From: Prevotella melaninogenica | GTDB lineage: Bacteria; Bacteroidota; Bacteroidia; Bacteroidales; Bacteroidaceae | NCBI RefSeq assembly: GCF_018128065.1 | Contig: NZ_CP072359.1 | Span: forward strand, 62,001-126,000 | DNA: 64,000 nucleotides | Direction of reading: 5' to 3' | In this document: piece after piece, positions 42,421 through 61,349 of the stretch | How positions within the stretch are numbered: the first letter of the stretch is position 1 | Layout: the number at the start of each line of letters is the position of its first letter | Position numbers and translations under genes: made by a program | The notes under the pieces: model-generated | Told to the model about the DNA's origin: nothing | Databases searched by the model: none | The model's input: the letters and a program-made list of their open reading frames with translations, nothing else

Positions 42421-42499
42421 AGAACTAATTTTATTATCAGTGTTATCTTTTGTAGTTAGTTCTTGCGACTACGAGATTAGGAAAATACAAAGAAGTAAT

Positions 42500-42919
42500 A
42501 TGAACAGAGAAATATTATTCAGAGCAAAATGCTTTGGCAACTGGCGTTATGGAAGTTATGTACACTTTGACAAAAAGCCTATCTATAATTGCTATAATTG
42601 CAATTACAAAGATTTCATTGTAACTAATGAAGAAGACGGTGAGCATTATTATCCTATTACAGATCTTTCCTCTATAGGACAATACTGGTGGCTCAATGAT
42701 AAGAACGGAAAGAAAATCTTTAAGGGGGATGTACTTTTTCAAGAACAGGAACTTTTAGGGGTAGTCTGTATATCCAAAAGATATGGTGTATCTATCCTGA
42801 AAAAAAAAACTACTTGGTCTTTAATAAATTTTGTTTTAGATAGTGATTTTGATGCAGGTGTATTGTCTGATATAGAAGTTAGAGGTAACATCTACGACAA
42901 CCCCGAATTAATGAAGTAA
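42500..42919 (+). CDS. YopX-family phage protein
   Basis: The 139 residues from the ATG at 42500 begin NREILFRAKCFGN, then YGSYVHFD, KNGKKIFKGDVL and GNIYDNPELM, the standard order of YopX proteins. I prefer this start over one at 42440 because the extra N-terminal 20 residues do not look like the family and AAAGAAG precedes 42500. Function of the family is unknown; it is common in phage early regions. Confidence 0.85.
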   Translation: MNREILFRAKCFGNWRYGSYVHFDKKPIYNCYNCNYKDFIVTNEEDGEHYYPITDLSSIGQYWWLNDKNGKKIFKGDVLFQEQELLGVVCISKRYGVSILKKKTTWSLINFVLDSDFDAGVLSDIEVRGNIYDNPELMK

Positions 42920-42924
42920 AGCGT

Positions 42925-44061
42925 ATGGAACATACTCACGCAAGCCTCTTTTCGGGTATTGGTGGAGCAGAACTCGCTGCCTCGTGGATAGGCTGGACTA
43001 ATATGTTTCATTGTGAAATACAAGAGTTTCAGCGAAAAATTTTAGAGTATTGGTTTCCCAAAAGTATTTCTTATGAAGACATTACAAAAACTGATTTCAC
43101 CAAATGGAGAGGACGCATTGATGTCCTCACAGGAGGATTCCCTTGTCAACCATTCAGTGTTGCCGGTAAGCGAAAGGGAGCGGAAGATAACCGCTACCTC
43201 TGGGGTGAAATGTTACGAGCAATACGGCAAATTCAGCCCACTTGGGTTGTTGGTGAAAACGTTAATGGAATCCTCTCAATGGTACAGCCCTGTAATGCGC
43301 TTAAAGTGGGACGCACGGATGATTTATTCGAAGAGAATTACATATACAGAACAGAGCAACAATTCACTATTGATGTCATCTGTGAAGACCTTGAGCATGC
43401 AGGATATTCGGTCCAGCCGATTGTTATTCCGGCTTGTGCCGTCGGAGCACCACACAGAAGAGACAGAGTATGGATTGTTGCCCACCGTACAGACGCAAGG
43501 GCTGAAAGTTTGCAACAAGAAGGGCAAAACGGAATTTCTAAGTCCTCTATTGCTGCCAACACCGACAGCAATAGACAAAGGGTCAGGACGCATAAACAAA
43601 TCATTGAGCAAAAATGCAACAGAGCGACCAACATTGGCAAAATGTGCAAAGATGCAGCTTCTGCCAACACCCAATGCTTCGGAGGGAACGAAGTGGACAA
43701 CAAAGTACAATGCAAACAGTCAAATGGGGAAAGGACTGACGGCAATGGCATGTTCAGGATTTCTTTTAACACCAATGGAAAAGGATGGAATGCGCTCAGG
43801 TATGACGATGAATGCTCTGAAAAAACACGGCAAACCGAATGCCAATTTGGCAGAGCAGATTGCCCACAAGATTGGTGGCGGGACTTCCCAACTCAATCCC
43901 CTGTATGTAACGGAAATGATGGGATACCCTTTAGAGTGGCTGACCTTACCCTTTCTTTCGCAAAATGGCGAAGCAAAAGCATCGAATCGTTAGGAAATGC
44001 CTGGGTACCGCAAGTTGCATTTGAGATTTTTAAAGTGATAAATAACATAGATTATGACTAA
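42925..44061 (+). CDS. DNA (cytosine-5) methyltransferase
   Basis: This is a solitary phage C5-cytosine methyltransferase. Motif I (ASLFSGIGGAEL), motif IV with catalytic Cys74 (GGFPCQPFSVAG), motif VI (ENVNG), motif VIII (APHRRDRVW) and motif X (SLGNAWVPQVAFEIF) are all present in order in 378 residues. The part from about 190 to 320 is target recognition and is less conserved. No restriction enzyme is next to it, so it probably shields phage DNA from host restriction. A 306-codon frame is nested inside it (43073-43993), and its end overlaps the next gene by 8 bases. Confidence 0.92.
   Translation: MEHTHASLFSGIGGAELAASWIGWTNMFHCEIQEFQRKILEYWFPKSISYEDITKTDFTKWRGRIDVLTGGFPCQPFSVAGKRKGAEDNRYLWGEMLRAIRQIQPTWVVGENVNGILSMVQPCNALKVGRTDDLFEENYIYRTEQQFTIDVICEDLEHAGYSVQPIVIPACAVGAPHRRDRVWIVAHRTDARAESLQQEGQNGISKSSIAANTDSNRQRVRTHKQIIEQKCNRATNIGKMCKDAASANTQCFGGNEVDNKVQCKQSNGERTDGNGMFRISFNTNGKGWNALRYDDECSEKTRQTECQFGRADCPQDWWRDFPTQSPVCNGNDGIPFRVADLTLSFAKWRSKSIESLGNAWVPQVAFEIFKVINNIDYD
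43073..43993 (+). CDS. Nested overlapping gene within the methyltransferase, +1 frame
   Basis: A 306-codon frame runs in the +1 phase over most of the methyltransferase gene, without stops. Its product has sequence features beyond chance: repeated LLPTP (GLLPTVQT, LLLPTPTAIDKG, LLPTPNASEG) and QLNPLYVTEMMGYPLEWL, a phrase I recognise as a conserved block (LNPxFVxxMMGFPxxW) of phage proteins usually annotated near methyltransferases. Where this phrase is read, the methyltransferase frame reads TQSPVCNGNDGIPF, itself conserved in Bacteroidota phage enzymes. So both frames look selected. No function is known to me. Whether it is translated is the open point. Confidence 0.55.
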   Translation: MKTLQKLISPNGEDALMSSQEDSLVNHSVLPVSERERKITATSGVKCYEQYGKFSPLGLLVKTLMESSQWYSPVMRLKWDARMIYSKRITYTEQSNNSLLMSSVKTLSMQDIRSSRLLFRLVPSEHHTEETEYGLLPTVQTQGLKVCNKKGKTEFLSPLLLPTPTAIDKGSGRINKSLSKNATERPTLAKCAKMQLLPTPNASEGTKWTTKYNANSQMGKGLTAMACSGFLLTPMEKDGMRSGMTMNALKKHGKPNANLAEQIAHKIGGGTSQLNPLYVTEMMGYPLEWLTLPFLSQNGEAKASNR

Positions 44062-44611
44062 GAAGATAATGTTTAATGACAAGTACTGCCTTACGCAGGT
44101 GGTGCTGAACGGAACAAAGACAATGACAAGGCGAGTGTTGAAAAAAGATATACCGCTTGGCAATTGGGAAGAAACAAAGAAATATCTTCCTTATAAGGGT
44201 GGCGAAGTGATAGCAATAGCGCAGCCATATAAGGATATTATCGAATGTATGGCGGAATACAACGATATTATAATCAATGTAGATGGCTCGATAAATAGAG
44301 AATTTCAGGCTGGATGGAAGAATAAAATGTTTGTCCGTGCCGATTTGATGCCCCACCACATCAAGATTACAGATGTGCGTATTGAACGCTTGCAAGATAT
44401 ATCAGACGAGGATATTATGCGTGAGGGTGTTTGGCAATTTTATGACAATAAGGATTTGTTTTATGTTTCCAAAAATATAGGAGATGCCCACACTGTAGCT
44501 TTTCCAAGTGCATGTGAAGCCTTTGTCTATCTCATTGACAAGGTAAGTGGTAAAGGTACATGGGAAAGTAATCCGTGGGTGGTTGCGTATATTTTTGAGT
44601 TAGTAGACTAA
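44054..44611 (+). CDS. ASCH-domain-like phage protein
   Basis: The 185 residues start with IMFNDKYCLTQVVLNGTKTMTRRV, matching the ASCH/PUA-like fold often found in phages (VLNGTKTMTRR). ITDVRIERLQDISDEDIMREG and the end WVVAYIFELV are also typical. ASCH proteins probably bind RNA or modified nucleic acids. It overlaps the methyltransferase stop by 8 bases, so translation is likely coupled. Confidence 0.8.
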   Translation: MTKKIMFNDKYCLTQVVLNGTKTMTRRVLKKDIPLGNWEETKKYLPYKGGEVIAIAQPYKDIIECMAEYNDIIINVDGSINREFQAGWKNKMFVRADLMPHHIKITDVRIERLQDISDEDIMREGVWQFYDNKDLFYVSKNIGDAHTVAFPSACEAFVYLIDKVSGKGTWESNPWVVAYIFELVD

Positions 44612-53258: not shown

Positions 53259-56200
53259 TTATTCGCTTATCTCAACTTTTCCACGGAAGGCAAGCCGAGA
53301 ACAGACGCTCGAACTCGACCGCGATGATGTGGTTAGCGCATCCGCAAAGACGAGACCGCCATCCGCCGACGCACCGCGACACGAACGCCCGACAACACGG
53401 CTTCTTGCATGATTATACCATTGTCCATCGGCATAGTTGGATGCCCATCTGCTATCATCAGAGCTTACTCTTGAAGCGATAATGTCACAATAGCGTCCAT
53501 GTCTTACACGTGCTATACAGTAACTGCTGTCTTTAGTCCCTTGCACAAGTCGTTCTGTCTTGCTGATTGGGTCATAGATATGCCATACAGCGTCTGTCGG
53601 ATAAGTGTTAACCTCTACCGTCTTGTCTTTCATATATTGACGATAAGACGGTATATTCACGGCAACATTATCTTCCCACTCATAATAAACACCAAAGAAA
53701 CTCTCAAAACCTAAGCACTTTGTTCCTCTATTATCTTCACGTCTACTATCAGAGTTGCCAATATCATCACGATAGCCTGTAACATCACTACTACCATAGC
53801 CATAACCACAAATCAACTGTGAATCACGTGTTCCTGACAATGAGAACCAGAGAACAGCCATCAGCTTAGACATATCATAGTCTATCATCTGATAGCCATT
53901 ACCTCTGCGGTGTGCAAGATTTTGGAAGTCTTTATAGGTAAACTCCATCTTGCGTACAGGTGTGTTAGTTGCATAACCCTCCTCGTCGTATAGCCATTCA
54001 GAAGATGTACGGTTATTATTACTACCTCTCTGCACTGTTGCTCCAGATACAGAACGCAGTCTAAGTAGACTATCTACTGATGCTTGATAGACACCCAATA
54101 ACCATGGCTCATTGCGTACCCAATCAGGCTCAACGGCTTCTATCTCTGCACTGTCTACTGCAATAGCCTCTAATTCAGCGTTTACATTACTTGACGAGAA
54201 TACAAACTCATTAGCGCCTTGTGGCACATCTATAAAGACGTAGTCTCCATCGATGAAGTCAAAGGCGGTATTGCCTATTGCAAGATTGTACTTCGATATG
54301 ATAGTGCCTGCTGCATTCAGAAAACATGCTCCTACTGTGGCATTATTCATACCTGGCCATCTGACCTGCTTCATTCCTGCAACATCAATCTTGTAAACAT
54401 CTACATTTGACACCTCAGCAAGGATACCAGCACTATCCAAGGTACTTTCGTTTAATCTGATTTTTTCAGACATCACGCCAGTATTAGCTTTCAGCAGGAT
54501 ATCTTTCAGCTTCTTTCGTGTGACACGCTTAGCAGTAGATAATGGCTCCGTTGTCAGACTACTCCATGCAATATATTTCTTCTGATTCTTGAAGTCATTG
54601 ATACCTTTGTACCACATTGCAGGACAACGCATCATCACGTCAAAGCCGTCGGCAGCCTTATCGGTATAGTCAAATTCAACTCCGTTAGCAAGGTTGTGAT
54701 AATTCGTTTCTGAAACCTTAACGCCCTCCCACACGTTTCTTTCCGTGTTGAGTTTTCCCTTAACTGGTATAAGCTGCTGTCTAATCTTGGCTACATGTGC
54801 GCTTGGCACAAAGTCATTAGAAAACATCTGACCTGTCTCATTGTCGAGGTTACTGATATTAGCAGGGTCATCAACAGTATCGTCAAAGACTATCAGTGAG
54901 TATTGCGACTGATGTATTGTCAAGTTTGGATAATACTCTTTCAAAGCTGCAAGCTTGCTATCTTCAACATACTTCGTAAGCGTCCATGTTCCACTTAGAC
55001 CATCGCAGATGTTAGTGTGTTCCGAGTTAATACCACGTGTACCCATTTCTTTCATTGCAGATAGTGCGGTATCTTTCTTAGAACAATCAACGTCTTTTAT
55101 CAAAATGGTACTAATCGTAGCACCGGCAGCAACAGCATCTTCTAATATTCTTACTGGGTCTATATTCGAACATCTGTGTATACGCACGCTACTTACATTA
55201 CTCAAGCCCTCGTAGGTCAAGCCTCCATTAGGATAAGTAACTTTTGGCATACCTACAAACACAATGTCTGTCATACTTGCAGGGAACTGTGCTACTTCTA
55301 AAGGACAAGCCTCAGCTGGAGTAAATGTACGCAATGTACTACCCTTAGCAAGGAATGTCTTTAAGCGTGGGCAGTTTTCTGCTCGCACACTAAGCACCTT
55401 GGTGTGTTGTATGTCAATCTTCTTTAAGAATGGCATTGCAGGAAGATTGAGAGAAGTCAGAACGCCTGTTGTGTAGGCAGGCGTATAGCTTTCTCCGCCA
55501 ACAATCAATTCTTCCAATAGTGTGCAAGTACTGATGTCGAAACCCTCTTGCTTTGGTGTGCAAGCCGAAATATCAAGCACCGACAATTTGTCTGCACCAA
55601 ACACATACACCATCTTGCCACTCTCCTGTGCTGCGTTGGCTCTTAAGGTGTAAGTCTCACCTGCTCTTAGGTAACAGCTATCTGTAACCGTATCCGCACG
55701 GTCTTCACCTAATCCAAAGAAGCCATCTTGCGCTGCTGTTATCTTGATTGAGATTTCTCCCATCATACGTGCTTTGAATGGTGCAGTATATAAGTCGCCT
55801 ACTTGATAATAGCCGTCACGCAGCTTAAAGCGTTTACGCTGGTAGTCAGGTAAGTCCTCTAAACGCAAACCGTGAAGTGCATAGAAGTAGTTGGCTGCTG
55901 CTGTAGAGTTCTGAATATACTTACGTTCACCATCGAAAGAACTGATAACCTTTGCCCAACGTGACAAACGCTTTGTAATCCAATAGTAATAGCAGCCATC
56001 AGCACTGAACACTTTTCTACTATTGCGCTCTGTCTTACGCATAGCAGCTGCTACTTCATGTAGTGTAATGGTTGTTGTACCACTATCGTCTATCCATAAG
56101 TTTGGTGCTGCATACGTCTGTACGAATGTTACACTATCCCAACCTTGATATAGATGTGAAGTAACGGCATCCATATCCCAAGGAATTGTAAGGCCACAAT

Positions 56201-59200
56201 CATTATCGCTACGATCTACACAGTCTCCATCGTACCAATGATTAAAGTAGGCTCGTATCGTTCCATCTGGCTCCAAATAGAAGGCAATCATCATATTCTT
56301 ACTACGCTGGTCTACTGCTGCCTTGTAATCGGACGCAATTGTGTAGCAACACAATGAATATGGATTGGCGTACTTATGTACTTCTTGCTGCCATTTCTTT
56401 AGTCGATTTTCCTTTGTTCCTGGTACTGACACACCACCAAGTGTAATGTTCCCATTTGCTTCTGTCTGATGTTGGTTACATTGCTGTGAGAACACAAGCC
56501 ACTTGTAAAGGTTATAAGGGACCTTCTTGCCGGCTTTGTAAAACTCTTCAAGATTGTCATCATCAGGATATCGAGTTTCATAATAACTCATCCAGATGGG
56601 TGCTCCTGTTGCAGGGTCAATACGCATCATGTCATCAAGACTGTTCACGCCCTGACCCCAACATAGGCTATCATACTTTAAGTATTCGTAGCACTCTGTT
56701 GGATTTACAACTCGTCCTATAACACTCCATTTCTTAGTAGCCTTGTTAAAGGTCATACTGCCAGTAGTGTCTATCCAGTTGCCACCTTGATACTGTACAT
56801 AGTGGTCATCACTGGTCTTGTACACATTCTGCCAAGTGTAGTTCTTAACATCATCTGCAAGGACTTCTGCAAGCGTTTTGTCGACTGCAACAGGCTTTTC
56901 TACAGCCTGTACCTCTCGCATAGCACCCTTACCGTCATTCTCTATTACAAAATGCTTATTACCACAATACTCACTAAGAACATAGATATTTCCTGCAATT
57001 AATTGGGTAGTGTCTGCTAACACTTGCGACTTAAAAGCTGTTAGTGCTTGATTCTGTGCTGCTACGAGTTCTATAAAGTCACCATAGTTGAGGCACTTCT
57101 TACTATATCCGTTTACCCCCTTGAAGCCAAAGAAGTCGGCATCACCTTTATCGGCATTGAAGTTTGCCTTAGCATGGAAATACGCCTTGGTAGGGTTCTC
57201 GGCATCGCTGTGGTTCATTCGGCTATCGGTGCGGAACAAAGCGCATGGAACGCTATCAATGCTGGTGTGTATCTCATACTCACCCTCATTGTACACCTGT
57301 GCTGGTGTCATGTACTTTTCACCCAGTGCTATTTGAGTCTCGTTCATCAATTCCATCATAGCACCGTTGTGTGCACCGCAACTATCGGAATAGTCCACCT
57401 TAATACAGATGATGTTAGTAAAGTTTCCACCCTCCACAACTTGTATGCGGTTCTTAGCAGCCATTTTCACACACTTATCATACTTGCTAAGTGCATCAGC
57501 ATTGCCAGGGAACATAGTCTGAATTTCTTCACGTGTATGCAATAAGGTGACAATGGCTATCTTCATCTTACCTTTCTTATTCTTAATAGGTCGCCATGAT
57601 GATGTTGTGCCTTGATTGGTCTGCGTGATACCGATTATCTTGCAGTTCTGCCAAGGGCGGTCTGGGAAGTAGCAATACCAGTCAACTATCTGTTTTGTTT
57701 TCTTGTCTCCATCTTTCGTTTCAAGATAGTCAGGATAGTTTGCTGCAATATCTTCTGCATCTGGATTCTTACAGATAGCACATACCATCAGACCTGCGTC
57801 AAGACATTTCTGCATCGTTGGACGGTCTTTGGTCGTTCCCTCTGCGGTAATACTTGCCATAACATTGTTCTGCTCATACTCTCCAATCATCGCTGTGGTA
57901 TCTGTCAAGCCAACAAGATAGTTATAGCATGCTTGAATATAGTTGTAGTAAGTATTCCATGCTGTCAACTCGTAGAGGTACACATCTGCTTTGTGTCCAT
58001 CGAAATGAATAGTTGAGCTATGATTTGCTAACTCACCAGCTTTATATGCGACAGCACCAGCCTCATCACCATTTAAGAACACCTTAATAACACCAATACC
58101 TCCGTATGGTGCAATCGTAGATGGTTCAAACACAATATCGAAGCGTGTTGGCTTATCATTGACGTATGGCACAAGTGCTGTTGTTGCCGCATCTGTAAGA
58201 GAGCCATTAGTCGCTACGATGAGTTCTTCTCCTGTCAGAACAAAGCCCAACTTCTCACCCATACATTTAATAAGGTGTGCATTGCGGTCTGCAACATTCT
58301 TGGTCATGACGGTGAATGAGAATGCCAAGCCATTCGTTTCGATAGCGTTCGAAGCAAAAGGTTGATAAGTACACTCTGCTGTTACATCTTCTGCAATACG
58401 TAATGCCATACGTCCTTTGTCACCAGCTGTACCATAATCGCTTGTACCGAAGCTATCTTTTACAAAGCCATTAGTTGTGTAGTTTGCACCATTTACATTA
58501 ATACTTACAGGCAGTCCATCTGATGTGACCGTCTTTATCGTTTTATCACTATCAGCATTACTACGCTCTGCCATACTGAATTTAAGTACAGCACCTTCGG
58601 TTTCACTGATAGGAAGTAACGTACCACTAATAGTAACCTTATACGATTCTTTTAATGTGGAATCACCGCTATTAACACTAAAGAGTAGGTTGTCTCCGTC
58701 GTGGTAGCCGATAAGACGTCTGTTTATCACCTGTGTAGTATCACGAGCCATCACCTGTCGTGTGATTATCTCTGTCTTGCTTGTTGTCTCGTTGGTAAGT
58801 GAAATAACAGCCTCTGGACGTGATGTGCTACGCTGATAAACTGCCACATCAAAAATGACTGTAGCATATAGTTTCTTCTTCCCCTCACTGTCATCACTCC
58901 AACGTGCCACTACAATAGGCTTGTCGTAGTCATCAAGGCTACTATCCTGCTGAATGACCATAACGGCAGTATGCAAGATATTACCTTTCACACCAGACGC
59001 AACATCTTGACCTTGTATGCGAATAGGATAAGCACCATGCGCTAATCCTGTCGGGTCTATTCTTACAGAGTGTGAATACGTATCTGTAATAACAGTAGTC
59101 TCTAACGGCTGCCACGTGCCGTCTCTGAATAATTCAATTGTGGTACGGATACCTTTATCGCTACTATTCTTTGGGAAAGAATACATCAAGATGTTCTTTG

Positions 59201-61349
59201 CGTTTCCTCCCACTTCAAGGCTTGTGTCTTTGGTGTAGTGTAGGGTCTGCACACTCACGCAAGTTACATCTACGGCTACTACAGATAGGTTCTTGCTTGC
59301 AGTATTACCACTATCGTCTACAACTACCATCTGCAAGCTGCCTTGTCCTGCATTTACATAGAGTGGACTCAAATCAAAGACAAAGCTATAATCTTCCAAG
59401 GTTGAAGATGATGGTTTCTTTGTGTCGAATGTTGCAACGACTTTCTTTGTGGTACGATCTACAAACTGTACGTTTGTAATACTATTACTTGTTTCTTGAT
59501 TTCCTGCCTTTGTGATACTCAAGATAGAAGCATGTACGTTGAATAATCCACCAGCTTTACCATACAAAGGATTCTCTTTGAATGCAATAGCTATGGTTGT
59601 ACCACCAACAGAAGAGCCAGTACCGACAACGAACTGCTGCTCGTCACCTATACTTTCTCCTGCTTCATTCGTCATCTGTAGTTTTACAACACCCTCTGTT
59701 TCTGTGTTAACCTTTAGATTGGTTGGGATGTGCTTGTACGCACCTGCACTTGAAAAGGCTTTCTCTTCATTGTTCCTTGGTGTGCCTGTTAACTCCACCT
59801 TTGCTGTGCCTCCACCTCCAAAGGCAACCCATGGCTTCAAGTCTGCTGGATTGATGTCTGGTACTTCACGAGTAAATTGGAATGTTGCCCATACGTGTGC
59901 TCCATTGCTATCTTTCTCGGCCGTCTTGAAAGTAAGTACTGCTCCGCTTCTGAAATAGGTAAAACCGCTTGCTTGTTCCAAATCTTGGACTGCCTTAATA
60001 GCTGTACTCAATGTATACTCAACGTCTGGGCAAAGCGTATTGACGTTGAGGGTGTTTCCTATATTCGTGCCGTTTGCGCCAAAATCTTTCCAGTTACCCT
60101 CTTTGTTCCAACTCTCTGTATTGACCCACTGCTTAGATACCCAACCATTATTAGGTGTGTTGAATGTAAGGACGATACCAGGAATCATTATCTTCTCCTT
60201 GCCCTTGTACTCGCTAATCTTTTCCAAAGCAACAGAGAAAGTCATGTCTCTATTCTCCATACCTAATAGCTTGTTGACATTCACAACGCCACGAGCAACG
60301 GCTGCCTTCTCATCGTCCTGCAATGCTTCAATATCTCTTTGCGAATTGGCAAGGTTCTGTTTTAGTTCTGCACCTTCATTACCAGGAAATGCTGTCCCAG
60401 CTGTATAGCCCAATGCAAGGTCTGAACCAATAGGGGCTAATTTCGTCCCACTCCACCTATAGGTAATATTGTCAGAAGAATCAATATATACCTTACCACT
60501 TGCAGGGGTGCGACCATCTTTAGAATCAGTACCGTAATTGTCCGCATCAGACCAATCAGCATAATATGTGGTTGTACTATCTTCGTCCGATGTTACTGCT
60601 AATACAAACTTATTCTTAGCTCTGTTATAGATAACCTTAGCATGTTCGTCTTTTGATGACTTCTCTGTAGCTTGCTGCTGTGCTGTCAAGCTATCCATGC
60701 AACCATCAAACTCTATGACATCATCAACATAACTTGGCAAGTGAACAGCTGGTACTTTGCCATCTTCATCTAAAGGAGCAATACCATTTGCCTTGCCTTT
60801 CGAGTCTTTTATAGTGGTTAATTCAGCATTTACATCAGATGCAGCTTTCTTAGCATTTTCGGCAGTCTGCTGTGCTGTCTCAACGGCTGTGCGAGTTTGG
60901 TTCACACTATCGCCTTGTGTCGTTACTTGTGTTTTGAGTGCCTTTACATCATCTTTGATACCCTTAACATCTGTCTTCGTAGCGTTAAGGTCACCCTGCA
61001 ATTCAGATATGTTGCTATTATATTGCTCACTATCCACTGTAGGGTTTCCGCCATTCTCTCCTGTTGCTACCCATGCACCACCATCAGCTACATAAATAGG
61101 ACTTGGCAAGCTACGTCCAACAATAGCCCACCAGCCGTCATGTGGACGTGGGTATGCCTCACGAAGTTTCTCGACAGTAGTAAAAAGACCCTTGTTGGCT
61201 GACTTGACATTCTTAGCCTCAAGCCAACCATCTACTTTACAATTGCCTTTTATATGAGTATTTCCTTGAACAGTAGCATTGCCACCTATGGAAGTATTAC
61301 GACCTACTGATACGTCACCGTCTAATTGCGTTGTCTTTACAGAACTCAT
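53259..61349 (-). CDS. Giant phage tail protein with variable-type lectin-like C-terminus
   Basis: The 2696-residue protein is the longest in the window. In order: a repeat-rich head (about 1-50), a coiled coil (about 113-180), a lectin/LamG-like beta-sandwich (about 1000-1130), a leucine-rich-like region (about 1900-2080), and a C-terminal domain (about 2440-2696) of the lectin/FGE-like type ending WYNHARSRVVGRS, GGLVFADA and SRLAFRGK. Such ends are found in tail tips and in diversity-generating targets of Bacteroidota phages. It is probably the receptor-binding tail spike/fibre. The start ATG overlaps the stop of the connector-like gene (ATGA). Confidence 0.75.
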   Translation of the reverse strand: MSSVKTTQLDGDVSVGRNTSIGGNATVQGNTHIKGNCKVDGWLEAKNVKSANKGLFTTVEKLREAYPRPHDGWWAIVGRSLPSPIYVADGGAWVATGENGGNPTVDSEQYNSNISELQGDLNATKTDVKGIKDDVKALKTQVTTQGDSVNQTRTAVETAQQTAENAKKAASDVNAELTTIKDSKGKANGIAPLDEDGKVPAVHLPSYVDDVIEFDGCMDSLTAQQQATEKSSKDEHAKVIYNRAKNKFVLAVTSDEDSTTTYYADWSDADNYGTDSKDGRTPASGKVYIDSSDNITYRWSGTKLAPIGSDLALGYTAGTAFPGNEGAELKQNLANSQRDIEALQDDEKAAVARGVVNVNKLLGMENRDMTFSVALEKISEYKGKEKIMIPGIVLTFNTPNNGWVSKQWVNTESWNKEGNWKDFGANGTNIGNTLNVNTLCPDVEYTLSTAIKAVQDLEQASGFTYFRSGAVLTFKTAEKDSNGAHVWATFQFTREVPDINPADLKPWVAFGGGGTAKVELTGTPRNNEEKAFSSAGAYKHIPTNLKVNTETEGVVKLQMTNEAGESIGDEQQFVVGTGSSVGGTTIAIAFKENPLYGKAGGLFNVHASILSITKAGNQETSNSITNVQFVDRTTKKVVATFDTKKPSSSTLEDYSFVFDLSPLYVNAGQGSLQMVVVDDSGNTASKNLSVVAVDVTCVSVQTLHYTKDTSLEVGGNAKNILMYSFPKNSSDKGIRTTIELFRDGTWQPLETTVITDTYSHSVRIDPTGLAHGAYPIRIQGQDVASGVKGNILHTAVMVIQQDSSLDDYDKPIVVARWSDDSEGKKKLYATVIFDVAVYQRSTSRPEAVISLTNETTSKTEIITRQVMARDTTQVINRRLIGYHDGDNLLFSVNSGDSTLKESYKVTISGTLLPISETEGAVLKFSMAERSNADSDKTIKTVTSDGLPVSINVNGANYTTNGFVKDSFGTSDYGTAGDKGRMALRIAEDVTAECTYQPFASNAIETNGLAFSFTVMTKNVADRNAHLIKCMGEKLGFVLTGEELIVATNGSLTDAATTALVPYVNDKPTRFDIVFEPSTIAPYGGIGVIKVFLNGDEAGAVAYKAGELANHSSTIHFDGHKADVYLYELTAWNTYYNYIQACYNYLVGLTDTTAMIGEYEQNNVMASITAEGTTKDRPTMQKCLDAGLMVCAICKNPDAEDIAANYPDYLETKDGDKKTKQIVDWYCYFPDRPWQNCKIIGITQTNQGTTSSWRPIKNKKGKMKIAIVTLLHTREEIQTMFPGNADALSKYDKCVKMAAKNRIQVVEGGNFTNIICIKVDYSDSCGAHNGAMMELMNETQIALGEKYMTPAQVYNEGEYEIHTSIDSVPCALFRTDSRMNHSDAENPTKAYFHAKANFNADKGDADFFGFKGVNGYSKKCLNYGDFIELVAAQNQALTAFKSQVLADTTQLIAGNIYVLSEYCGNKHFVIENDGKGAMREVQAVEKPVAVDKTLAEVLADDVKNYTWQNVYKTSDDHYVQYQGGNWIDTTGSMTFNKATKKWSVIGRVVNPTECYEYLKYDSLCWGQGVNSLDDMMRIDPATGAPIWMSYYETRYPDDDNLEEFYKAGKKVPYNLYKWLVFSQQCNQHQTEANGNITLGGVSVPGTKENRLKKWQQEVHKYANPYSLCCYTIASDYKAAVDQRSKNMMIAFYLEPDGTIRAYFNHWYDGDCVDRSDNDCGLTIPWDMDAVTSHLYQGWDSVTFVQTYAAPNLWIDDSGTTTITLHEVAAAMRKTERNSRKVFSADGCYYYWITKRLSRWAKVISSFDGERKYIQNSTAAANYFYALHGLRLEDLPDYQRKRFKLRDGYYQVGDLYTAPFKARMMGEISIKITAAQDGFFGLGEDRADTVTDSCYLRAGETYTLRANAAQESGKMVYVFGADKLSVLDISACTPKQEGFDISTCTLLEELIVGGESYTPAYTTGVLTSLNLPAMPFLKKIDIQHTKVLSVRAENCPRLKTFLAKGSTLRTFTPAEACPLEVAQFPASMTDIVFVGMPKVTYPNGGLTYEGLSNVSSVRIHRCSNIDPVRILEDAVAAGATISTILIKDVDCSKKDTALSAMKEMGTRGINSEHTNICDGLSGTWTLTKYVEDSKLAALKEYYPNLTIHQSQYSLIVFDDTVDDPANISNLDNETGQMFSNDFVPSAHVAKIRQQLIPVKGKLNTERNVWEGVKVSETNYHNLANGVEFDYTDKAADGFDVMMRCPAMWYKGINDFKNQKKYIAWSSLTTEPLSTAKRVTRKKLKDILLKANTGVMSEKIRLNESTLDSAGILAEVSNVDVYKIDVAGMKQVRWPGMNNATVGACFLNAAGTIISKYNLAIGNTAFDFIDGDYVFIDVPQGANEFVFSSSNVNAELEAIAVDSAEIEAVEPDWVRNEPWLLGVYQASVDSLLRLRSVSGATVQRGSNNNRTSSEWLYDEEGYATNTPVRKMEFTYKDFQNLAHRRGNGYQMIDYDMSKLMAVLWFSLSGTRDSQLICGYGYGSSDVTGYRDDIGNSDSRREDNRGTKCLGFESFFGVYYEWEDNVAVNIPSYRQYMKDKTVEVNTYPTDAVWHIYDPISKTERLVQGTKDSSYCIARVRHGRYCDIIASRVSSDDSRWASNYADGQWYNHARSRVVGRSCRGASADGGLVFADALTTSSRSSSSVCSRLAFRGKVEISE
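53280..53400 (-). other. Candidate variable region at the 3' end of the tail gene
   Basis: These 120 bases (codons about 2650-2690) are about 64% GC (77 of 120 counted from 53281), while the 60 bases just before them in the gene are 43%. Many codons end in C or T with Ser, Arg, Gly and Asp, the usual look of a diversified repeat. No template copy or reverse transcriptase is seen in the window. Confidence 0.45.

Follow-up and report, generated by a model that had tools for sequence, protein, structure and literature searches.

A gene nested in a phage cytosine-5 methyltransferase gene, and its possible role as the recognition subunit of a two-frame enzyme

In a prophage-like region of Prevotella melaninogenica, two frames of the same DNA probably encode a heterodimeric DNA cytosine-5 methyltransferase (C5-MTase), a reading to which we give a probability of roughly 0.8. 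The inner of the two open reading frames (ORFs), here called beta, is real and is kept by selection, and its conservation, which spans Bacteroidota and Bacillota, exceeds what is forced by the methyltransferase (MTase) protein, alpha, in which it is nested. Selection acts on both frames. Judged from its sequence, beta is most likely the half of the enzyme that chooses the target sequences.

Results

Two overlapping genes in a prophage-like region

The window, as we call the whole stretch of 64,000 nucleotides that was analysed, carries an MTase ORF that entirely contains a second ORF in its +1 frame. A preliminary description had reported this 306-codon ORF, and it is present at 43073-43993 (+) with an ATG start. 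The phrases quoted there were also found, namely the LLPTP blocks and QLNPLYVTEMMGYPLEWL in the nested frame and TQSPVCNGNDGIPF in the host frame. Codon positions 1, 2, and 3 of beta are positions 2, 3, and 1 of alpha, respectively. The main features are as follows.

42925..44061 (+): alpha, DNA cytosine-5 methyltransferase ORF of 378 aa, putative catalytic subunit (PF00145, phrog_363)
42940..42981 (+): alpha motif I region (ASLFSGIGGAELAA), by alignment with canonical MTases
43073..43993 (+): beta, 306-aa gene inside alpha in its +1 frame, with an ATG of its own; putative recognition subunit
43132..43167 (+): alpha motif IV region, which includes the PCQ nucleophile (GGFPCQPFSVAG), by alignment with canonical MTases
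43444..43485 (+): alpha motif VIII region (GAPHRRDRVWIVAH), by alignment with canonical MTases
43486..43977 (+): alpha linker from motif VIII to motif X; open, with relaxed constraint on the alpha reading apart from the stretch close to the motif IX-like end
43889..43948 (+): beta motif IX-like segment (QLNPLYVTEMMGYPLEWLTL), for which the best hhalign match is canonical motif IX
43978..44034 (+): alpha motif X region (SIESLGNAWVPQVAFEIFK), by the alpha profile on template columns 293-327

Upstream of the MTase lie a CI-like repressor, an anti-repressor, a RecT-like annealing protein, a replication initiation protein, and a DnaC-like loader, and a viral contig, IMGVR_UViG_2600254995_000002, encodes a nested protein identical to that of the window. 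The MTase also has as neighbors a YopX-family protein (42440-42919, +) and a phrog_874 protein (44054-44611, +) that starts within the last codons of alpha. Downstream of the MTase region there is an ORF of 2696 aa (53259-61349, -).

The nested frame is open and conserved beyond chance

We shuffled the synonymous codons of alpha while keeping its amino acids and codon usage fixed. In the permuted sequences, 8.2 nested stops are expected over the 306 codons, and the nested frame was open in none of 20000 permutations, the minimum being 1 stop. The +2 frame of the same stretch has 28 stops in the real sequence. Because the 171 loci to which the permutation was extended had been chosen for open nested frames, their zero stops hold by construction, and the informative figure is the mean probability of an open frame, which was 0.0007.

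Conservation was assessed with a distant nested profile made from four loci (two Lactobacillaceae phages, one Paenibacillus phage, and one gut phage contig with the host unstated). The nested protein of the window scored 109 bits with this profile, compared with a mean of 24 bits (sd 8.9, maximum 54.7) for 500 permuted versions. In the reverse test, with a profile of nine other loci, each of the four distant loci scored higher than all of its 300 permutations.

Codon permutations and position-specific rates were used here in place of FRESCo or OLGenie to assess constraint. The ratio of third- to first-position differences in alpha codons was obtained from 57 of 64 independent pairs, the other seven being without motif anchors, with alignments built on the alpha protein, a bias that favors alpha. 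The ratio was 3.65 before the overlap (CI 3.23-4.18), 1.85 in the catalytic part of the overlap (1.70-2.03), 0.52 in the linker (0.42-0.64), 1.27 at the motif IX-like end (1.05-1.57), and 2.99 after the stop codon of beta (2.54-3.59). In the linker, differences at third positions were fewer than at first positions in 43 pairs and more numerous in 8. Narrower anchors, available for 29 of the 64 pairs, gave the same picture, and the recognition region of canonical MTases gave a ratio of 2.34 from the 3 usable pairs of 4. These values agree with a prediction made in advance, by which the third position of alpha should change fastest outside the overlap, about as fast as the first within the overlap, and more slowly than the first in the linker. 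Alpha third positions, which are the second positions of the nested codons, change less across the overlap than at the two ends of each gene that lie outside it. Substitution at nested nonsynonymous sites is therefore not free, whereas the preliminary description had named free substitution there as the mark of a by-product.

Since the ratio flips in the linker despite alignments that favor alpha, the nested frame is the conserved one between motifs VIII and IX, where alpha is a relaxed spacer. Alpha is also kept open there: with the nested residues fixed, only 2.7 of 182 alpha linkers would be expected to be open, and the zero stops observed in this test are partly due to selection because loci with an interrupted alpha were excluded. 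The cassette, tyrosine-codon, rate, and openness analyses excluded twelve loci at which several alpha ORFs were hit; in nine of these twelve, alpha is interrupted. The earlier proposal of a genuine overprinted gene acting on the MTase or a partner is thus supported by the selection on the nested frame, and the role that the sequences favor for it is that of a missing part of the enzyme.

A probable division of the C5-MTase motifs between the frames

Alpha matches phrog_363 (1.5e-68) and PF00145, the latter with 143 bits over profile positions 4-227 of 324. Because the Pfam match stops at position 227, the previous statement that the host frame has all expected methyltransferase motifs was overstated; it holds for motifs I-VIII and X of a C5-MTase, and motif IX is unrecognizable. 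We compared profiles of 169 alphas or 169 nested proteins with 23 canonical C5-MTases over 414 columns using hhalign. The alpha profile covers canonical columns 13-186, corresponding to motifs I-VIII including PCQ (E 1.7e-43), with a second match at columns 293-327, corresponding to motif X (E 6.3e-5). Motif IX has no counterpart in alpha in this comparison. A canonical motif IX profile, with which all 23 training sequences score above 8 bits, reached at least 5 bits in none of the 169 alphas. A motif IX pattern was found in none of 80 MTase-selected alphas, but a similar pattern caught only 15 of 32 ORFs, and we place no weight on that negative.

The best canonical match of the nested profile (169 proteins) is to columns 279-295, the location of motif IX (P 0.0096, Prob 4.3). 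Only one of 200 column-permuted nested profiles scored as high, at a different position, and the reversed profile did not. Among the single nested proteins, none of the 169 reached 5 bits with the canonical motif IX profile (median 0.1; window -4.3), and 159 of 166 best hits fell on the xMGFP segment. The end of beta accordingly has a modest and divergent likeness to motif IX, which convinces by its place more than by its score, and our confidence in the two-subunit reading was lowered slightly for this reason. The nested profile matched no solved structure up to E 10. Two weak hits of the nested protein, one to His_biosynth in Pfam (E 0.05) and one to hisA-trpF in NCBIfam (E 0.17), fell below the cut-off and were discarded.

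Tandem cassettes in the C-terminal half of beta

LLPTPxAx(D/E) blocks with a median length of 42 aa sit between the N-terminal half of beta and its motif IX-like end, and they may be the elements that recognize DNA. The window has four of them.

43475..43549 (+): beta cassette 1 (LLPTVQTQGL...), with a variant start missed by the cassette pattern; resembles the family LLPTPQTQGLKVC...
43550..43657 (+): beta cassette 2 (LLPTPTAID...)
43658..43762 (+): beta cassette 3 (LLPTPNASE...)
43763..43888 (+): beta cassette 4 (LLTPMEKDG...)

The cassette set included 298 of 321 nested proteins, after 23 without a recognized end had been dropped and P0062 and P0034 had been excluded earlier. Closely similar database proteins make up 115 of the 298, and the remaining 183 loci are the safer set. 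Counted with a pattern that misses variants such as LLPTV, each of the 298 proteins has 1-7 cassettes, with different modules in tandem ahead of the motif IX-like end. Clustering at 55% identity or more gave 231 families, 52 of them with at least 3 members, and the cassettes are combined into 208 architectures in all, with 178 among the 183 fetched loci. Many of the families are small, and part of this variety is therefore divergence.

Twelve pairs of cassettes are at least 70% identical between genes with catalytic domains less than 55% identical. In one such pair, from a Paenibacillus locus and a Flammeovirgaceae locus, the cassettes have 75% identity and the catalytic domains 46%. The same cassette family occurs twice in none of the 298 proteins. 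Position-preserving shuffles of the 183 loci led to an expectation of 6.1 proteins with repeats and never gave zero in 2000 trials; over all 298 proteins the expectation was 29.3, a figure inflated by near-identical database proteins. Weaker likeness between cassettes within one protein was seen in 4 pairs (42-49% identity). Exchange between backbones together with the lack of repeats would be expected if every cassette adds another target.

The start of the nested gene

In many relatives, the nested ATG is formed by a tyrosine codon of alpha and the following G. The tyrosine codon that makes the ATG is TAT in 54 cases and TAC in 5, compared with 499:584 for the other tyrosines. Shine-Dalgarno sites upstream of the nested starts were scored at 18 loci, 16 from Bacillota and two phage contigs with the host unstated (L009 and L072; L160 is absent from the set), and wherever a locus had more than one candidate start, the highest-scoring one was used, for the real and the permuted sequences alike. 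The total was 98 compared with 64.6 for the permuted sequences (sd 8.7, maximum 84 of 200), and sites of at least 5 bases were found at 15 of the 18 loci compared with 8.0 expected. The 23 loci from Bacteroidota had no Shine-Dalgarno excess (48 compared with 48.9 permuted), and the beta start in the window is without a Shine-Dalgarno site. Bacteroidota use Shine-Dalgarno sites weakly. The result for the 23 loci is consistent with such weak use in the phylum, and the start in the window gains no support from it.

Distribution of the two-frame arrangement

Searching with tblastn, we found that the nested frame of the window matched 67 of 50,697 phage records; with L009, a relative from a gut phage, as the query there were 74 matches, and with L207, a relative from a Salmonella phage, 227. 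At E 1e-3, 2900 predicted proteins match the nested protein, of which the best 120 were inspected, and the nested protein matches phrog_1008 (1.1e-23). Relatives with 82-92% protein identity exist. The nested frame was confirmed on 282 genome contigs, and the 80 that were kept have labels of Bacteroidota, Bacillota, and Proteobacteria. The same 80 include uncultured bins of Planctomycetes, Nitrospirales, and Omnitrophota, in which stray phage contigs are possible. Within the phylum of the window, phrog_1008 was detected in 2 of 148 genomes, one of them being the window's own, and a phage trait therefore fits better than a core gene.

We fetched 173 loci via the nested frame, four of which (L001, L010, L171, and L173) are copies of the window itself. 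An MTase overlaps the nested frame in all 173, and 185 of 187 overlapping ORF pairs are in the +1 phase. Free-standing nested genes were considered as well, and none of these 173 nested-selected loci lacks an overlapping alpha, a count that is no census. Among the viral loci selected by alpha, which are the best 80 of 560 confirmed and of which 29 have an alpha gene that also occurs in the viral set selected by the nested frame, the nested profile matched in the +1 frame in 80 of 80, and the frame is open for at least 150 codons in 78. The two exceptions below 150 codons (L271 and L276) have a short alpha ORF as well. The preliminary description had taken stops in the nested frame of homologous genes as the mark of a by-product, and such stops are not the rule at these loci.

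With the first 49 residues of alpha, which are not overlapped, as the bait, 5 of 100 genomes of the same genus were positive, including the window's own. The nested frame is present at all four other loci and is open for 325-495 codons. By comparison, the nested profile had no match among 34 canonical C5-MTase ORFs of relatives in the same genus or order, some of them repeats from overlapping loci, and in these ORFs the +1 frame is never open for more than 125 codons. Across the loci examined, from phages and prophages in several bacterial phyla, the nested ORF has a length of about 180-500 codons.

Discussion

In the two-subunit reading, alpha would be the catalytic subunit, with motif I, the PCQ nucleophile, and the motifs up to VIII, followed by a long polar linker and motif X. 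Beta would start at an internal ATG, with an N-terminal half that overprints the catalytic domain of alpha and a C-terminal half that would be the main coding frame of the recognition region, consisting of the LLPTPxAxD cassettes and then the motif IX-like segment. Alpha and beta might assemble into one enzyme, in which the small DNA-recognizing domain comes from beta. The arrangement probably originated when the recognition region and motif IX segment of an ordinary MTase shifted to the +1 frame while both ends were kept in frame, and the start codon of beta could have been gained upstream after this displacement. The enzyme would methylate the phage DNA, most simply as protection from host restriction. 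The translation of beta, its assembly with alpha, target recognition, the origin, and the protection from restriction are steps that we infer.

The alternative that survives best is that a beta protein is made but works on its own in an accessory role, for example as a regulator, an inhibitor, or an anti-restriction factor, outside the MTase. We consider this unlikely, even though single nested sequences resemble motif IX only weakly and the nested profile has no match among solved structures up to E 10. Alpha is without a recognizable motif IX or Pfam coverage past position 227 of 324, and the best canonical match of the nested family is exactly the motif that is absent from alpha. Moreover, each frame is accompanied by the other at all loci fetched, both the 173 selected by the nested frame and the 80 selected by alpha.

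It is less likely still, and by a clear distance, that a ribosomal frameshift leads from alpha into the nested frame and that the product is an alpha-beta fusion, with no separate beta. Metagenome proteins that join alpha motifs I-VIII to the nested frame could be taken as such products. However, all eleven of the fusions that were inspected end past the motif IX-like segment without motif X, and their junctions differ. A frameshift also leaves unexplained the nested constraint over the catalytic domain, the bias toward ATG-making codons, and the internal Shine-Dalgarno sites. The inspected fusions are the database proteins P0062, P0034, P0123, P0124, P0128, P0133, P0142, P0160, P0169, P0209, and P0220, and they look like deletions or frame errors between the frames.

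That the nested ORF is a by-product of MTase codon use and conserved motifs, with no product made, is very improbable: some of the nested sequence is indeed dictated by the MTase motifs near the C-terminus, as the 24 bits still averaged by the permuted window indicate, but no permutation was open or came near the real score, the overlap holds down change at alpha third positions, which in the linker falls below that at first positions, and canonical C5-MTases do not have the nested frame.

Some loci do not have both frames intact. A stop interrupts the alpha linker while the nested frame is open at six Bacteroides/Parabacteroides loci (L103, L104, L106, L107, L108, and L114) and one viral locus (L090), and these seven count against the two-frame enzyme. 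At L172, the nested frame is broken and alpha is open. Loci with one broken frame may be decaying copies. On two viral contigs (L056:2494 and L077:2545), a two-codon insertion with an in-frame stop lies in alpha directly before the catalytic PCQ, with TAA in one and TGA in the other at the same site, and the nested frame stays open across the insertion. If this were random decay, the two unlike stops at a single position would be odd. On the phage-like plasmid 28 of Bacteroides finegoldii (L205), the gene table has no MTase entry at the MTase region; the N-terminus and the rest of alpha share a frame but are broken apart, and the nested ORF is open for 303 codons.

The closest known system is M.EcoHK31I, which was reportedly described by Lee, Kam and Shaw in 1995. 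Its subunit genes overlap in different frames. M.EcoHK31I (YGGCCR) is a natural two-polypeptide C5-MTase with motifs I-VIII and X in the larger polypeptide and motif IX in the smaller, the same division as is proposed here for alpha and beta, going by the published description (PMC3404938). In M.EcoHK31I, the target recognition domain was predicted in the larger subunit (PMC3404938), whereas here the constraint is in the nested frame, with a linker ratio of 0.52. M.AquI is another two-subunit C5-MTase that resembles the pair proposed here in sharing the motifs of one MTase between two polypeptides; its motifs are split inside the recognition region, and its smaller subunit carries motifs IX and X (PMC3404938), whereas here alpha retains motif X and most of the length of the two putative subunits is encoded by shared DNA. 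Unlike M.EcoHK31I, the family described here has variable tandem cassettes as its putative recognition region and is found in phages and prophages of many phyla.

The recognition domains of the MTases of Bacillus phages SPR and SPbeta are all in one polypeptide. These phage-encoded C5-MTases are multispecific and have several tandem recognition modules between the catalytic motifs, in which they resemble the present family with its putative recognition cassettes (PMC8936443). M.BatI was considered as a possible characterized relative (PMC8936443). The difference from the single polypeptide of SPR and SPbeta is that the putative recognition cassettes here are in a second, overlapping frame.

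The nested family itself has been recorded before. In GenBank, DIVA_50 of Paenibacillus phage Diva (KP296791) is a "g49 internal gene" of the same family inside an MTase gene, and phrog_1008, "DNA methyltransferase", is the same family collected as a phage protein family; neither annotation assigns a subunit role. In other records, the nested frame is without its own annotation or stands under another methyltransferase label. A table in a 2018 survey of P. larvae phages has DNA-cytosine methyltransferases gp62 and gp63 (PMC6070908), which are probably a pair of the alpha/beta type. Our literature search, which most subscription papers lay outside, found no paper that treats the nested gene as a phage MTase subunit. 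New are the breadth across phages of many phyla and the recognition apparently located in the overprinted frame as exchangeable cassettes. The family is apparently a broad variant of the split C5-MTase kind with recognition in an overprinted frame. We think it somewhat more probable than its opposite that it forms a phage-wide class of two-frame C5-MTases, in which recognition resides in an overprinted gene of exchangeable, never-repeated cassettes and a divergent motif IX.

Long same-strand overlapping ORFs in bacterial viruses are usually dismissed as artefacts. If the two-frame reading is true, these genes would be among the longest and most widespread same-strand overlapping genes of bacterial viruses, and phages would alter the set of protected sequences by the gain and loss of cassettes that have to be kept open in both frames simultaneously. 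The supposed recognition region of these MTases would then currently be read in the wrong frame, which would affect the prediction of specificity for thousands of phage MTases. The family would also allow direct tests of how a recognition module evolves when it is encoded in a second frame.
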